Below, in pieces: positions 30,481 to 36,621 of a stretch of 52,368 bases of DNA. The stretch is from Chitinophagaceae bacterium. Lineage in GTDB: Bacteria; Bacteroidota; Bacteroidia; Chitinophagales; REEL01. Position 1 is the stretch's first letter; each line of letters begins with the position of its first letter. The stretch lies in NCBI GenBank assembly GCA_007695095.1, contig REEL01000141.1, positions 1 to 52,368 of the forward strand, written 5' to 3'. The notes beneath the pieces were generated by a model. The model worked only from the letters and a program-made list of their open reading frames with translations, was not told the DNA's origin and made no database searches. Made by a program: the position numbers and the translations under genes.

Positions 30481-31848
30481 CTATGAGCCCGAAGATGCCT
30501 TTATGATTTTTTTATAAATATCTTTCCTTTTCCTCCATCTAAAATCATTCAAATTGCTATTATGCCAAAGGAGTACAAAGTTACCATTATACTTTTTAAT
30601 CCGCTTAATGATATCCATAATATTTCTTAAAAACATATCGTTCTTTTTTGCATGCTTATCTACTGCTACTTCCATAACATGAAGGCTGTATTCCTCTATA
30701 TTTAATGTACGCCTTTCTAAAACATCAAATGGTTTATAGGGATAGCAAACGCCTGTTCTGAAACCCGGGAGAGATGAAAATCCTACTCCCATATGCTTTT
30801 TCAGTCCTGCTTCCTCCCAAATTCTCCAGGTATATGGAATGGAAAACCGCAAAAAATGTTGTCTCCCACTATCAATTTTACTTTCAGCGGGCTTTGCTTT
30901 ACTTAATCTCTCTAACTCCTCCCTAAATTGCAGACGATTATTAAAAGCATCATAAGAAGGGTGAAATCCGATTTTGTGATTTCTATTATGAATTTTTTGG
31001 AGTAGCTCTTCAACTTCCGGGCTTCTGATATCAAACCAGACATCTTTCTCCCCTTTAAATCCGGGTAGAATATTAAATGTGGACACTAAATTATTCTGTT
31101 CTGAAATATCCATCAAAAAATCAAAAGTGTCATAAGGGTCTTTTCCGCTAAAAAGCTTTTCGAGATATAAAAAGACATCCTGAAAAAATAAATAGGGTGA
31201 CTTTCTGGACAAGAGATTGCCGGCACTAATGCGAAGGAACCTGTTAAAATCATCAAATTTTTGAAAAAAATCTACATCATGGGTAATATGTGATTCAAAG
31301 GTTCTGGCTTTCCTTTCTCCGTTATAACCTGCTTCCAGCAACAGATCCCATAAAAACTCAACATAAGTATTAACTATTGGTGTTTTATAAATATCGTTTT
31401 TAACCACAAACGACAACTTATCCGGAAAGCGACCATGTTCATCTTTTTCAGTAATCACGTTTTCTTCCCATCGGCTCAGCATAAAAAAAGCAGATGCAAA
31501 AATATCATATCCGCAATCTATATCTGCTTCTGTTGATTCCGGAGATTTATCAAAAAAATCTGCTCCAAAAACCAGGTTTAGCTGCTCGTTTGTTCTAAAT
31601 GGATTATCAACTACTATAACCTTATCAGGGATTGCCGATTTATCCAGATAATCAGTATCATTCCAGAAGCCGGAGAAGAACTGCTCTCTTATACGAATTT
31701 TCTTTTTGTTTGGTAATTCTATGGTATAAAAAAAACGCTCCGGGTCGGTAACTGTCTTAATTTCAATACCTAAAAAATCCACAAGCATAGTGCGGATTAT
31801 ATATTCCTTTTCAGGCAAATTTCCCTCAGGTATTGTGATTTTAAGCAT
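30481..31848 (-). CDS. Polysaccharide deacetylase-like protein (DUF7033 plus deacetylase fold)
   Basis: The N-terminal 150 residues form a family-specific domain (DFLGIEIKTVTDPERFFYTI, YDIFASAFFMLSRWEE). The rest resembles a divergent carbohydrate esterase 4/polysaccharide deacetylase barrel: ESHITHDVDFF (metal Asp and His at about residues 190-198), NNLVSTFNILPGFKG, NHKIGFHPSYDAFNN (metal His) and NFVLLWHNSNLNDF. Members of this group occur in Bacteroidota capsule and exopolysaccharide clusters. It is the first gene of a reverse four-gene operon (gaps of 3, 21 and 2 bases) and probably modifies the glycan built by the downstream enzymes. Confidence 0.75.
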   Translation of the reverse strand: MLKITIPEGNLPEKEYIIRTMLVDFLGIEIKTVTDPERFFYTIELPNKKKIRIREQFFSGFWNDTDYLDKSAIPDKVIVVDNPFRTNEQLNLVFGADFFDKSPESTEADIDCGYDIFASAFFMLSRWEENVITEKDEHGRFPDKLSFVVKNDIYKTPIVNTYVEFLWDLLLEAGYNGERKARTFESHITHDVDFFQKFDDFNRFLRISAGNLLSRKSPYLFFQDVFLYLEKLFSGKDPYDTFDFLMDISEQNNLVSTFNILPGFKGEKDVWFDIRSPEVEELLQKIHNRNHKIGFHPSYDAFNNRLQFREELERLSKAKPAESKIDSGRQHFLRFSIPYTWRIWEEAGLKKHMGVGFSSLPGFRTGVCYPYKPFDVLERRTLNIEEYSLHVMEVAVDKHAKKNDMFLRNIMDIIKRIKKYNGNFVLLWHNSNLNDFRWRKRKDIYKKIIKASSGS

Positions 31849-31860: not shown

Positions 31861-31981
31861 ATCGTAAATTAAAAACTGTCATATTTATATGCAAATATTA
31901 AGGGGGAAAGCTTCGCAAAGTCCCAAGAGACCGAGAACCAAAGGGAAAGTAGGCAGTAGCAGTAGGCACTATGCAGTCAAT

Positions 31982-32010
31982 GGAAAAATTATGATGGCAA
32001 ATGGCAAATG
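31982..32010 (+). repeat. Short repeat E, copy 1
   Basis: GGAAAAATTATGATGGCAAA plus TGGCAAATG recurs almost exactly at 32508-32537. Shorter variants of its AAAAATTATG core occur near 33796 and 34193. Confidence 0.65.
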
Positions 32011-32256
32011 TGGTGGAGCTTCCTCCTGTTGGCATCGCCGCTGCCTGAGCGGCCTGTACAGAGCGGAGTCGTAGTAAGTCGAAGGCAGTACTTAGTAATA
32101 AGAATATCGCATTCGCGTCTCGCGAGCGTAAGTGTTGAGTAGCCTCCGACTGGCATTCAATGTTCTAAGGCTATTTCTTAAGTTAGATTTTTCATAATTT
32201 CAAGTCCGCTGACTTCGACACGCTCAGCCACCTATCTACCTTTCAATAAACTGTTT

Positions 32257-32522
32257 AAACCTGCCCCCAATCAGGAGATTGTCACACTTCAAGCATGCCC
32301 GCAAGGCTCCCCTTTTGAAGCTCACAATGACGGTGGGGAGTCAGGCTGTTCTCTGTCCATTTTCTGACATAAACAGTCATTCCCATTCAGAGATAAACCA
32401 CTAATCCCTCTCTAGCAATAGAGAGGGTTCAGGGTGAGTAATATACAGAGCATAATGAGATTGCTACTCTTTGAATATCCCGGAACAAAGACTCAAAAGA
32501 GGAAAATGGAAAAAATTATGAT
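32257..32522 (+). repeat. Long direct repeat A, copy 1
   Basis: About 266 bases that recur at 33941-34205 in the same orientation with roughly nine in ten bases identical by eye. Inside are the inverted repeats CTTCAA/TTGAAG, CTCCCC/GGGGAG and the perfect hairpin CCCTCTCT-AGCAAT-AGAGAGGG (32406-32427). It has no coding frame. The conserved hairpins suggest a structured mobile or RNA-level element. Confidence 0.85.
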
Positions 32523-32537
32523 GGCAAATGGCAAATG
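32508..32537 (+). repeat. Short repeat E, copy 2
   Basis: Near-identical to 31982-32010 with one extra A. It overlaps the right end of repeat A copy 1. Confidence 0.6.
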
Positions 32538-32670
32538 GATCTAAACTCTAATTGAAAGACCATAAAGCAGCCGTTTCGCAGAAGGCATGCGGCCTTTATT
32601 CCGGACTTGGGGTACCCGCTGCTTGAATCTTGCGTGAAAAATTTTACTGTTCGACGCAAGGAGTTTAAAA

Positions 32671-32706
32671 TTTTTAGCAAGTGAAAGCTTAGCGGGTCAA
32701 GGAGGA
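32671..32706 (+). repeat. Direct repeat C, copy 1
   Basis: The 36 bases from TTTTTAGCAAGTGAAAGC to GGTCAAGGAGGA match 33709-33744 with one difference (T to A at 32689). Confidence 0.8.
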
Positions 32707-32800
32707 ATTCAGCCGCGATTTTTTTGTTGACCCTTTATTTCTAAAAAAAGGTTTAGGAAAGTATTTTTTAATGTAAAAACCCTCTCTGGTTTAAGCATCT

Positions 32801-32853
32801 TTATGACCATCATTTATCCGAGCGTCTCGCTGATTTTTTATCAAATATTCCAT
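32801..32853 (+). repeat. Direct repeat D, copy 1
   Basis: About 52 bases beginning GACCATCATTTATCC and ending CAAATATTCCATTTA, with a diverged copy at 33573-33626. It lies 40 bases before the DUF2442 stop codon. Confidence 0.6.
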
Positions 32854-32891
32854 TTAATACTTGTGTGCCATATGCGACAGGGTGGCAAATG

Positions 32892-33245
32892 TCAAGCGAA
32901 TAAAATCTCGTCATCACCATTACTCTTCAGACTTCTAAGAGCTTGATTCAATGCAAACTTTTTAATAAATCCTTTAATGGACAAATCTTCATCTAAACTT
33001 TCCCATCTAATTCCTATACCATCCTTGATTAAACGCCAATCTTCCAATTCAGCATTAGAAGCTGTTTTAAGTTTCGGATAATCTGAAAGGCGACCTTTCA
33101 ATACATTTCCTGTATTAAACAGAATCAATAAAACATCTAATTCTTTATCGATTATTAATGTCTTAGCTCTTAATTTTTTCTCAAATATTAAACGGTCAAA
33201 TGAATCATTTGAATGTTTATTTCTAATATTATTTGAAGTACTCAT
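32892..33245 (-). CDS. DUF2442 protein (partner of DUF4160)
   Basis: The 117-residue product has the DUF2442 core: AKTLIIDKELDVLLILFNTG, GRLSDYPKLKTASNAELEDW, and GIGIRWESLDEDLSIKGFI near the end. The domain is small and is usually found next to DUF4160. Such pairs have been proposed as toxin-antitoxin-like modules; no biochemical activity is established to my knowledge. Its start overlaps the DUF4160 stop by 17 bases, so the two are translationally coupled. The gene sits inside a symmetric nest of direct repeats, which suggests the pair moved or was maintained as a cassette. Confidence 0.8.
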   Translation of the reverse strand: MSTSNNIRNKHSNDSFDRLIFEKKLRAKTLIIDKELDVLLILFNTGNVLKGRLSDYPKLKTASNAELEDWRLIKDGIGIRWESLDEDLSIKGFIKKFALNQALRSLKSNGDDEILFA

Positions 33246-33462
33246 ACCATGCTTCTTTTAATGTTTCCTGAAATTCTTCTACCAATTTAGCAATTTCTCT
33301 TCGTTGACGTATTGTAAAACCATAACTATAAACCTCTTCAATCGGTTCTAACCAATATTTAGCATTTCCTTCTGCCTTTTCTACGTGAATATGAACAGGT
33401 TCGTCATTCTCATTACTGTAAAAATAAAAACGGTATCCTTTTACTGTAATTACTGTAGGCAT
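33229..33462 (-). CDS. DUF4160 protein (first gene of a DUF4160/DUF2442 pair)
   Basis: From ATG 33462 the 77-residue product reads MPTVITVKGYRFYFYSNE, then EPVHIHVEKAEGNAKYWLEP and QRREIAKLVEEFQETLKEAW. This is the standard DUF4160 layout, with the conserved Y-R-F-x-F-Y-S-N-E and HIHV motifs. An upstream in-frame ATG at 33507 would add 15 cysteine-containing residues that are not typical, so the internal start is preferred. It precedes and overlaps the DUF2442 gene. Confidence 0.82.
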   Translation of the reverse strand: MPTVITVKGYRFYFYSNENDEPVHIHVEKAEGNAKYWLEPIEEVYSYGFTIRQRREIAKLVEEFQETLKEAWYEYFK

Positions 33463-33572
33463 AACGATTATAAAACTACAACATTTTTCTTGTTTTCTTG
33501 ATTCCACAAAAGTGATATTTTATTATGGAAATAAATTATACGCAACACCCTCTGTTCATAATCTCTCTCTAA

Positions 33573-33626
33573 GACCATTATTTATACTAGCGTCGCGCTC
33601 ATTTTTTACCAAATATTCTTTTTACT
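33573..33626 (+). repeat. Direct repeat D, copy 2
   Basis: About 53 bases from GACCATTATTTATACTAGCG to CAAATATTCTTTTTA, a diverged copy of 32801-32853 in the same orientation. Confidence 0.6.
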
Positions 33627-33708
33627 GCTAATTTAAACTGATAAAATCATTTCAAACAGTCCTCATCGCTGTTTGGGATTTGTAATCAGTCACTGTTTGA
33701 GTTTTATT

Positions 33709-33744
33709 TTTTTAGCAAGTGAAAGCATAGCGGGTCAAGGAGGA
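33709..33744 (+). repeat. Direct repeat C, copy 2
   Basis: Matches 32671-32706 at all but one of 36 positions, same orientation. Confidence 0.8.
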
Positions 33745-33856
33745 TAGCAAGACACAAGAGACCAAATTCCAAGAAGACTAAGATCCAAGTGAAAAGAAAT
33801 GTAAAAATTATACCTGGAAATGGAAAATGTTGTGAGAAATCTCCCTATCAATACGG

Positions 33857-33890
33857 AGATGCTTCCTGACGTCAGCATGACAGAAAAGAG
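33857..33890 (+). repeat. Direct repeat F, copy 1
   Basis: AGATGCTTCCTGAC, two or three variable bases, then CAGCATGACAGAAAAGA recur at 34280-34312. The two F copies flank repeat A copy 2. Confidence 0.7.
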
Positions 33891-33940
33891 GAGGGTTTTA
33901 CTATTTAAAAAAGGGTTAGAAGTGCTTGATAAAACTTTTG

Positions 33941-34205
33941 AAACCCCCTGCCCCAATCAGGAATTGTCACACTTCAAGCAAGCCCGCAAGGCTCCCCTTT
34001 TGAAGCTACCAATGACGGTGGGGAGTGAGGCTGTTCTTTGTCTATTTTCTGACATAAACAGTCATTCCCATTCAAAGATAAACCACTAATCCCTCTCTAG
34101 CAATAGAGAGGGTGCAGGGTGAGTCATATATAGAGCATAATGAGATTGCTACTCATTGAATATCCCGGAACAAAGACTCAAAAGAGGAAAATGTAAAAAT
34201 TATGA
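33941..34205 (+). repeat. Long direct repeat A, copy 2
   Basis: About 265 bases matching 32257-32522. The hairpin CCCTCTCT-AGCAAT-AGAGAGGG is perfectly conserved at 34091-34112. Differences are mostly single substitutions plus a few one- to three-base indels at the left end. Confidence 0.85.
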
Positions 34206-34279
34206 TTAAAAATGTGAAGGAGCTCTCACTTATAAACATCGCTGTTGCATATAAATAAACTGTTTCAATATTAATACTG

Positions 34280-34312
34280 AGATGCTTCCTGACAACAGCA
34301 TGACAGAAAAGA
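34280..34312 (+). repeat. Direct repeat F, copy 2
   Basis: Second copy of the motif at 33857-33890, same orientation. Confidence 0.7.
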
Positions 34313-34455
34313 AGGAAGGGGTTGCCTATTTTAGCGAGGGCAATACGGACAATAAAAGAAACAAAATTCCTTAAAATTGAGCTTTCTTTATTTCGAACCG
34401 ATAAATCAATTTTGAAATTGTATTTTAGCAACGCCAAAAACCATATACATTAACC

Positions 34456-36621
34456 ATGAATATTAATAAGAGCTTCTTCATTTTTTTTATACTCTTTCTC
34501 TCCTTTCACAAATTATATCCTAATCAATACAGCATTTCAATAAATCTTCCGCAACAATTGCTGGAAGAAAATATTAGTAAACATGCAATTTTTGATGTAA
34601 AAGAATTGCTTTTTGAAGCCTGTAACTGCGATATAAATTTTAACAATGAAACAGCCGACATAATCATAGAATTACCACATATTGACCTCAGCCTTATGGC
34701 TGAACCTAATCGTTTTTCTAAAAAAGCTGATTTCCCGTTTTATCACTTACCGGAACATGATTACAAATGGACATTACATCAAAATGAAAACCGGATATAC
34801 CTTCAATTAGAAACTATTTCCTTTTCAGGTATCAGTAACGGACTTTACGGTCTTTTACAAGAAAAGCTGGGTTTTGCATTTATTCATGCCCGGCAAACTA
34901 TAATTCCGGATCTCTCAAAATGGCCCTTAAAAACGGCTTTCACCTGGGAAGCTAAAGCCAGATTTGATAAAAGAGGTTTCCATTTACACACTATGCACCC
35001 GATTGAACTGGCAGAACCTCTTTTAGACCATACGTTTCCCGGTGGATTGGAAATGATAAAAGAATATCTGGAGTGGCTTGTGCGGAATAATCAGAATTAT
35101 TTTGATTTTAACTTGCTCGAAAGCATTGATTTAGACTACTGGCCTCAATATGCCAAAGAGTTTGTCATTTATGGTCAGGAAAGAGGAATTATAATGGGGC
35201 TGGATGTTTCCCTACATATGATTCAACAAAAAGCATTTAAGCTATATAAAAACCCTCCCTCTTCCTTTAGAAGCCGCAGAAACCAAATCAGAAGAAATCT
35301 TGATAAATTATTTACGGCTCCGTGGGATTATATAAACATGGAGTTTTCAACTACAGAGTTTTCTACCGGAAATCAATATAGAAAAGAACAACTCAGGCTT
35401 TATATAATCGATTTACTGGAAGAAGAATATGATGCAATACTAACCGGTCGCGAGCATGTTGTTAAAAAAGATGAACTCATTTCAACGGGAAGCACATATA
35501 CCCTGACTGATGAAGAGAAAGTAACAGATGCCAAGAGGCAAACCCTGGTTCACACCGTGATGTTCTATGCGCTTGAAGATGAAAGTGCACCTGTATATGA
35601 AAATGAAAATTTATCTCATATGCTGGACTTAATGAAAAAGGAAATGCAAGTGAGGGAAACCTGGTTTTATCCGGAATCTGCTTATTGGATAACTTTTGAT
35701 AACTCTGTTCCAATGCTTCTGTTACCGTATCTTTCCGGTAGATTAAGAGACATTTTGCTTTGTCATAAACTTGGAGTGCCGGGTCATATAACTTTCTCAT
35801 CCGGCTGGGAATGGGGTTATTGGTGGATTGACTGGAGTATTGCCCGCTGGAGCTGGGAACACACTTTTGATGAAAAAATTCAAGATACACATGCCTTACA
35901 GTATATAAATGATGTTTTTCAAAACGACAGTATTTTTACATTTTTCAATAAACAATTGGATTTACATGAATCTTATTTACTGGAAGATGAACTAATGCGC
36001 TACATGGCTGCTCAAACTGTCACTGATGAAATTCCACCTCCATTTAATAAAGAATTTCACCCCCGTCCAAGATGGCGATATAAAGATTTGTATAGAAAAT
36101 CAGACAGTTTAACCTTAGATTCCTTAAAAACAGAAGGAATTATACCGCTACATGAATTTGGAGATGCCTCTTTAATCATTTCTGCTCAATATGAAAAGTA
36201 CTTTGCCGATGATTCTATTCCTTTAATCCGGGATTTAAAAAAAGAACTTTATAATGCAATGGTAATAACTGCCTTGCGTGCTAAACACCGGGCAGCTACC
36301 TTGGAATACCTATCAGCAAAAAGACGCTCTAATATAGACAGAGACCGTGATTTTGATGAAAATAAATACCTGGAGGTTGCCGGGGAAATCAGAAGTTCCG
36401 CCCAGCATATAGTTGATGAAACGGAGTTGCTCTATCGCTATCCGGTTGAGCTTATTGCCAGACCTTATAAAGGACACACCGCTTACCCTTACGGATACCT
36501 TTACATACCATCAAAACTGCATTTTTGGGAAAGAGAAGAAGAACAGATAAGAAGAAACCGCTGGGGCCCTTTATTTATGAACATCTGGGACATATTGATG
36601 ATAGGTGGCTTGAAAAATTGA
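34456..36621 (+). CDS. Large exported protein, possibly glycoside-hydrolase-like
   Basis: A signal peptide (MNINKSFFIFFILFLSFHK and following residues) precedes about 700 residues. The N-terminal 150 residues contain FSGISNGLYGLLQEKLGFAF and ADIIIELPHIDL. These resemble the small alpha/beta domain that precedes the barrel in GH67/GH20-type glycosidases (typically ...GxxYGxxxxLE.LG...). The following segment (FDKRGFHLHTMHPIELAEPL, EYLEWLVRNNQNYFDFNL, GIIMGLDVSLHM, HITFSSGWEWGYWWIDWS) is aromatic-rich, as in a TIM barrel. I recognise no exact family and no catalytic pair is certain. A terminator follows. It stands alone to the right of the repeat nest. Confidence 0.55.
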   Translation: MNINKSFFIFFILFLSFHKLYPNQYSISINLPQQLLEENISKHAIFDVKELLFEACNCDINFNNETADIIIELPHIDLSLMAEPNRFSKKADFPFYHLPEHDYKWTLHQNENRIYLQLETISFSGISNGLYGLLQEKLGFAFIHARQTIIPDLSKWPLKTAFTWEAKARFDKRGFHLHTMHPIELAEPLLDHTFPGGLEMIKEYLEWLVRNNQNYFDFNLLESIDLDYWPQYAKEFVIYGQERGIIMGLDVSLHMIQQKAFKLYKNPPSSFRSRRNQIRRNLDKLFTAPWDYINMEFSTTEFSTGNQYRKEQLRLYIIDLLEEEYDAILTGREHVVKKDELISTGSTYTLTDEEKVTDAKRQTLVHTVMFYALEDESAPVYENENLSHMLDLMKKEMQVRETWFYPESAYWITFDNSVPMLLLPYLSGRLRDILLCHKLGVPGHITFSSGWEWGYWWIDWSIARWSWEHTFDEKIQDTHALQYINDVFQNDSIFTFFNKQLDLHESYLLEDELMRYMAAQTVTDEIPPPFNKEFHPRPRWRYKDLYRKSDSLTLDSLKTEGIIPLHEFGDASLIISAQYEKYFADDSIPLIRDLKKELYNAMVITALRAKHRAATLEYLSAKRRSNIDRDRDFDENKYLEVAGEIRSSAQHIVDETELLYRYPVELIARPYKGHTAYPYGYLYIPSKLHFWEREEEQIRRNRWGPLFMNIWDILMIGGLKN

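Follow-up and report, generated by a model that had tools for sequence, protein, structure and literature searches.

Background

The closest described relatives of the operon considered here are the DhiT/DhiA pair of Dickeya dadantii, in which overexpression of DhiT inhibits growth, co-expression of DhiA relieves the inhibition and the operon is autoregulated (PMC8198452), and a plasmid-borne pair from Thermus, the 'persistence enhancing module', which stabilises plasmids and could not be introduced in a version without the second gene (PMC12724237). The DNA around the operon has its own parallels among intergenic repeats. CGTC-tagged REPs are multi-copy, intergenic elements that have been described from several phyla, Bacteroidetes included, and have no known dedicated transposase (BMC Genomics 2013, 14:522, PMC3733652); they mostly form head-to-head dimers, and grouped elements are rare (PMC3733652). 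In Neisseria, the NIMEs (dRS3 plus RS units) combine short palindromes and longer repeats into intergenic arrays of several hundred base pairs that are linked to variable gene content (PMC3898611). There are nearly 700 dRS3 copies, and the arrays are associated with surface-protein genes (PMC3898611). Neisseria also contains minimal mobile elements, gene cassettes at a fixed intergenic site that are exchanged by homologous recombination alone (PMC3898611).

In the open-access literature that we searched, we found no account of toxin-antitoxin operons nested in arrays of this kind. The locus described below bears on the means by which small toxin-antitoxin operons that lack mobility genes of their own pass from chromosome to chromosome.

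A DUF4160/DUF2442 operon between direct repeats

The window, that is, the whole stretch of DNA analysed, comprises 52,368 nucleotides from a Chitinophagaceae bacterium (assembly GCA_007695095.1, contig REEL01000141.1). It encodes on the minus strand a DUF4160 protein followed by a DUF2442 protein, and the two genes overlap by 17 nt (DUF4160 stop at 33229, DUF2442 start at 33245). Both domains score above their Pfam cut-offs (66.7 bits against 23 for DUF4160, and 46 bits against 23.9 for DUF2442), and the DUF4160 gene is the only copy in the genome. The pair is like DhiT/DhiA of Dickeya and the Thermus module in having the same two Pfam domains with the toxin gene first (PMC8198452, PMC12724237), and like the Dickeya operon in the overlap of its genes. 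It is unlike these relatives in being distant in sequence and in lying inside a chromosomal repeat array. Since the DUF4160 protein reaches only 23.1 bits against the NCBIfam DhiT equivalog (NF048015), far below the cut-off of 100, it is a distant relative and we infer its function. By likeness to the published relatives, the pair is probably a DhiT/DhiA-like toxin-antitoxin system, in which the DUF4160 protein would act as a growth-inhibiting toxin and the DUF2442 protein would neutralise it. Similar pairs are found on plasmids, where 38 records contain a DUF4160 match.

Comparison of the window with itself confirms the arrangement that had been proposed for this locus, A-C-D-genes-D-C-A with every copy in direct orientation (Table 1), and each of the three similarities is beyond chance. 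Repeat A, originally put at about 265 bases and roughly 90% identity, turns out to be slightly longer and more alike, with 92% identity over 283 nt (E ~1e-112) and an ungapped core of 237 nt that is 95% identical. The 36-nt repeat C, matched at 35 positions, is the core of a longer repeat of 46 nt, of which 42 positions (91%) are identical. Repeat D is, as had been noted, more diverged than A and C: the two copies are 74% identical without gaps over 86 nt, and 83% identical over the best 59-nt core (32798-32856 versus 33566-33624). Further repeat modules flank the bracket on both sides (31916-32259, 33747-33921 and 34269-34331), and the neighbouring genes are a DUF7033 gene (30481-31848) on the left and a gene for a 721-aa protein (34456-36621) on the right. 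The only genes between the A copies are the toxin-antitoxin genes, and no transposase or integrase is found there.

Table 1. Genes and repeat modules of the DUF4160/DUF2442 locus, in window coordinates
Feature	Position	Strand	Evidence or remark
Modules M1 (AAGTCCCAAGAGACC...) and M2 (AATGGAAAAATTATGATGGCAAATGG), left cluster	31916..32010	+	Window repeats; M2 genome matches
Module M3	32107..32259	+	Matches L069, L071, L075, L082, L100 and L108 at 76-92%
Repeat A, left copy	32248..32530	+	Minus strand: CGTC-tagged palindrome CGTCATTGTGAGCTTCAA...TTGAAGTGTGACAATCTCC
Module M7, large imperfect hairpin enclosing C (32661-32706)	32555..32779	+	Fold z -2.1
Repeat C, left copy	32661..32706	+	Further copies on many contigs
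Repeat D, left copy, downstream of operon	32776..32861	+	Small AGCG-TCT-CGCT hairpin
DUF2442 protein, putative DhiA-like antitoxin, 117 aa	32892..33245	-	PF10387 E 6e-12
DUF4160 protein, putative DhiT-like toxin, 77 aa from ATG	33229..33462	-	PF13711 E 2e-18
Repeat D, right copy, upstream of operon	33544..33629	+	Window and genome repeat search
Repeat C, right copy, fragment of module M7	33699..33744	+	Repeat alignment
Modules M1 and M2, right cluster	33747..33830	+	Repeat alignment
Module M4 with palindrome TGTCATGCTGACGTCAGGAAGCATCTCC on minus strand	33840..33921	+	Alignment, palindrome search
Repeat A, right copy	33932..34214	+	Repeat alignment
Module M4, second copy	34269..34331	+	Repeat alignment

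Repeat D is rare in the genome and largely pair-specific. A pattern search that allows up to three mismatches finds exactly three copies in the genome, two of them around the operon and the third on another contig (C39:6030-6060), where it adjoins array modules. No exact match to the D pattern occurs in a collection of 84,980 species, and the other toxin-antitoxin operons of the genome are without D. D is either a rare extra module of the array or a boundary that the operon brought with it. We also considered D as part of an integron cassette; this reading was ruled out by the absence of attC boxes (RYYYAAC/GTTRRRY) in or around either D copy.

Mosaic repeat arrays across the genome

The search of the genome (3.49 Mb in 186 contigs) that the original prediction had called for places copies of A and C at dozens of intergenic sites. 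Counting the query each time, A matches 28 places, the left C/D segment 33 and the right C/D segment 54. All-versus-all alignment, carried out on targeted stretches, resolves about 62 intergenic clusters that are built from the modules M1, M2, M3, M4, A and M7, with C contained in M7. Of the 50 clusters that contain at least two modules, 48 keep all of them in one relative orientation, and the order of modules tends to cycle as M1-M2-M3/M4-A-M7-M2. The repeats A and C are, therefore, modules of arrays with a fixed orientation and a recurring order. A pattern for M2 matches 56 genomic sites, as against one for the reversed pattern, and adds few clusters. The genes beside the clusters are mostly ordinary (ribosomal protein S6, for instance) and lie in all orientations, and the clusters show no clear bias in orientation relative to their neighbours.

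The arrays are similar to NIMEs in that short palindromes alternate with longer repeat units between genes, and, as in the Neisseria arrays, genes for secreted or surface proteins are found between clusters. They differ from NIMEs in sequence, in number (about 60 arrays) and in phylum, and exchange of their contents is hypothetical. The dRS3 motif ATTCCC(N8)GGGAAT is absent from the sampled DNA; the arrays are thus NIME-like in layout, and not members of that family. An Rfam search returned nothing above chance.

Across 198 other genomes of the order, A gives only a single marginal match of 36 nt, and comparison of the region with plasmids and phages gives no match. The 60 nearest genomes that were searched belong to the same order and, without exception, to different families. 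In six other genomes of the order that have DUF4160 pairs, these are not enclosed by a comparable long repeat bracket; at one locus (L147), a 47-nt direct repeat surrounds the toxin gene and looks like coding sequence. The 721-aa gene that flanks the operon has no confirmed relative among the genome contigs searched.

Contig ends lie within 350 bp of 37 of the 62 clusters, so that array lengths and the toxin-antitoxin contents of the arrays are underestimated and some local misjoins may be present. The assembly evidently breaks at arrays, and array-borne genes are probably missing or confined to tiny contigs.

Toxin-antitoxin genes near the arrays

The original prediction had asked whether the same repeats flank other accessory gene pairs, and several such pairs do exist: VapBC-type operons with PIN genes beside arrays on two contigs (C15 and C136; the PIN proteins are 42% identical to each other), a DUF433/DUF5615 pair between array clusters on C113, and a ParE-type pair on C148. 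A search for genes of the DUF4160, PIN and ParE families, which were identified independently of the repeats, yields seven toxin genes. Four of the seven lie within 1 kb of a cluster, a distance that takes in 3.9% of the genome, the share expected (P ~7e-5); when the window is left out, the count is three of six (P ~1e-3). At a distance of 200 bp the count falls to two of seven (P 0.005, or 0.095 without the window), and the P values, which vary with the distance chosen, are uncorrected for any overall tendency of small accessory genes to lie in intergenic sites. The other three are remote from all arrays. Near the arrays, toxin genes outside the DUF4160 family are thus more frequent than expected, which offers a modest hint that the arrays favour toxin-antitoxin cargo. 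The original prediction had set such a preference against independent scatter in unrelated combinations, and the genome displays some of each: the repeats are scattered, mostly beside ordinary genes, and the proximity of four of seven toxin genes hints at a preference.

Other genes between clusters encode large proteins, of which two carry a Por_Secre_tail domain (T9SS-type) and one is Fib_succ_major-like; hence, the arrays are not specific for toxin-antitoxin genes. The GC content is 25-32% in the toxin operons, 36% in the sampled DNA and 39-43% in the clusters of the window.

Several of these loci have features of their own. The ParE-type toxin gene on C148 (L074, 7362-7789) contains an internal stop codon, and the 57-aa putative antitoxin gene beside it looks intact. 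On C136, a 109-nt direct repeat of 98% identity (L093, 5129-5237 and 6961-7067) encloses an array cluster, a small membrane-like ORF and the VapBC-type operon; this is the youngest-looking bracket around a toxin-antitoxin pair in the genome. On C113, the DUF433/DUF5615 pair and a convergent 80-aa ORF lie between two clusters (L108, 5655-6530). By eye, this ORF resembles a lone antitoxin; it has no confident match in Pfam. The locus has the look of two modules stacked in a single array.

Origin of the mirrored order

The mirrored bracket arises incidentally where a toxin-antitoxin operon interrupts a mosaic array of a kind spread through the genome. Because the modules are colinear and roughly cyclic, a break in an array can have A-C before it and C-A after it, all in the same orientation, and any operon that comes to lie in such an array will have the same modules at its two sides in what looks like mirrored order. 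Nested insertions are therefore unneeded, and the repeated insertion that had been suggested for this locus gives way to the colinear, roughly periodic arrays, which yield the mirrored order by themselves. More generally, any colinear mosaic array, once interrupted, will show mirrored direct repeats of this kind, which makes such a bracket tempting to misread.

The colinearity is also seen when the flanks of the operon are joined (end of M7 to M2): the joined sequence matches another array (L089 on C176) continuously over 349 nt at 87% identity. In a control, 76 of 250 random cluster pairs match over at least 120 nt on both sides. Since all arrays are colinear and such control matches are frequent, the joined-flank match supports colinearity and not insertion, and the reading of L089 as a paralogous empty site was dropped in view of this control. 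The control applies equally to the joined-flank test of the C15 operon, for which 12 breakpoint pairs were tried.

The sequences of the two A copies are not those expected of the ends of one mover. Over the 105-nt head, which most copies share, the left A has 93% identity to copies at two other loci (L072 and L074) and 90% to the right A, and in a tree of the 105-nt heads, which is poorly resolved, the left and right copies are not paired. They are, at the same time, the only pair in the sampled genome stretches that aligns over all 283 nt. A composite transposon or A-bounded mover was considered and rejected, as no mobility gene lies inside and A occurs at many sites.

Competing explanations

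The explanation that we favour is that toxin-antitoxin modules have inserted into repeat arrays that tolerate them. The locus is probably a DhiTA-type operon inside a CGTC-palindrome array whose repeats are able to serve host recombination, a judgment that covers both the anatomy and the recombination role of the repeats. The operon may have been acquired horizontally and have established itself at a site where it does no damage, and the flanking repeats would offer host recombination the homology by which the operon could be gained, lost or exchanged. Of the original suggestions, that the pair was inserted into pre-existing repeats is most likely correct; that of a cassette-like mover is mostly unsupported.

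A serious possibility, if a somewhat doubtful one, is an explanation that shares this anatomy and denies only the recombination role: long intergenic regions may gather repeats and toxin-antitoxin genes independently, the repeats moving nothing. The position of arrays between ordinary genes in all orientations, the non-toxin-antitoxin genes between clusters, the three toxin genes remote from arrays and the non-discriminating joined-flank test are all consistent with such a coincidence. Against it, toxin genes occur within 1 kb of clusters at about fifteen times the expected rate, a figure uncorrected for the general intergenic preference. It is unlikely that the operon instead moved together with its D ends as a unit of about 830 nt (D-genes-D'), for example as a circle that recombined at a D in the chromosome, before coming to rest in a standard array. 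In favour of this, the two D copies lie directly beside the operon, and the only other copy in the genome is next to array modules; the D cores, however, are 83% alike, which would make the event old, no transposase, integrase or attC box accompanies the D copies, and other toxin-antitoxin operons in this genome do without D.

Two further explanations appear very improbable. That the A copies are the ends of a single mobile element carrying C, D and the operon, as the original prediction allowed, draws on their unique alignment over all 283 nt in the sampled DNA. A, however, belongs to the array modules and has about 26 further copies, full or partial, that are unlinked to cargo, A and C recur at dozens of sites of which nearly all are between ordinary genes, the head of the left A is closer to other loci than to the right A, and the scarcity of A in the order, the absence of the region from plasmids and phages and the absence of a mobility gene inside all argue against a mover. 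An equally remote prospect is that two unrelated contig ends were joined through their repeats during assembly. The clustering of contig ends at arrays indicates that the assembler does break at repeats, but the A copies differ at 8% of positions, the junctions cross unique operon DNA, and toxin-antitoxin operons lie beside arrays on four other contigs (C15, C136, C148 and C113).

One may speculate, with considerable doubt, that in this bacterial lineage toxin-antitoxin operons are captured and exchanged at the CGTC-palindrome arrays, which would serve as docking sites through recombination between their repeats. Such arrays would be a counterpart, dispersed and free of integrase, of the toxin-antitoxin cassettes in chromosomal integrons. 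The minimal mobile elements of Neisseria are alike in placing a gene cassette in an intergenic site; exchange, which is described there, may occur here as well. With several unrelated toxin-antitoxin operons in or beside the same arrays, this genome is well suited to testing repeat-mediated capture by strain comparison.

Palindromes and REP-associated transposases

Palindromes of the form (C/T)GTCAT...ATCTCC occur 41 times, compared with twice in shuffled sequence, and are carried by three module types. They start with CGTC in two of the three types and with TGTC in the third. The stem of A folds, with a z-score of only about -1. These palindromes resemble CGTC-tagged REPs in being CGTC-tagged at one end, intergenic and multi-copy; unlike the elements described in PMC3733652, they are embedded in longer colinear mosaics.

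A gene for a RAYT, a REP-associated tyrosine transposase (NF047646, 100 bits), is present on C101 (L095, 3104-3691), 2.8 kb from an array cluster. This small contig carries both the RAYT and array modules, together with an adjoining palindrome, TCCGTAGCG-AGG-GCGCTACGGA, and another of similar form lies where C39 ends, next to the third D copy. Finally, a degenerate ORF on C154 (L087, 4374-4646), which falls below Pfam detection and lies about 700 nt from an array cluster, retains the VVMPNHFHA motif that is typical of REP-associated transposases.
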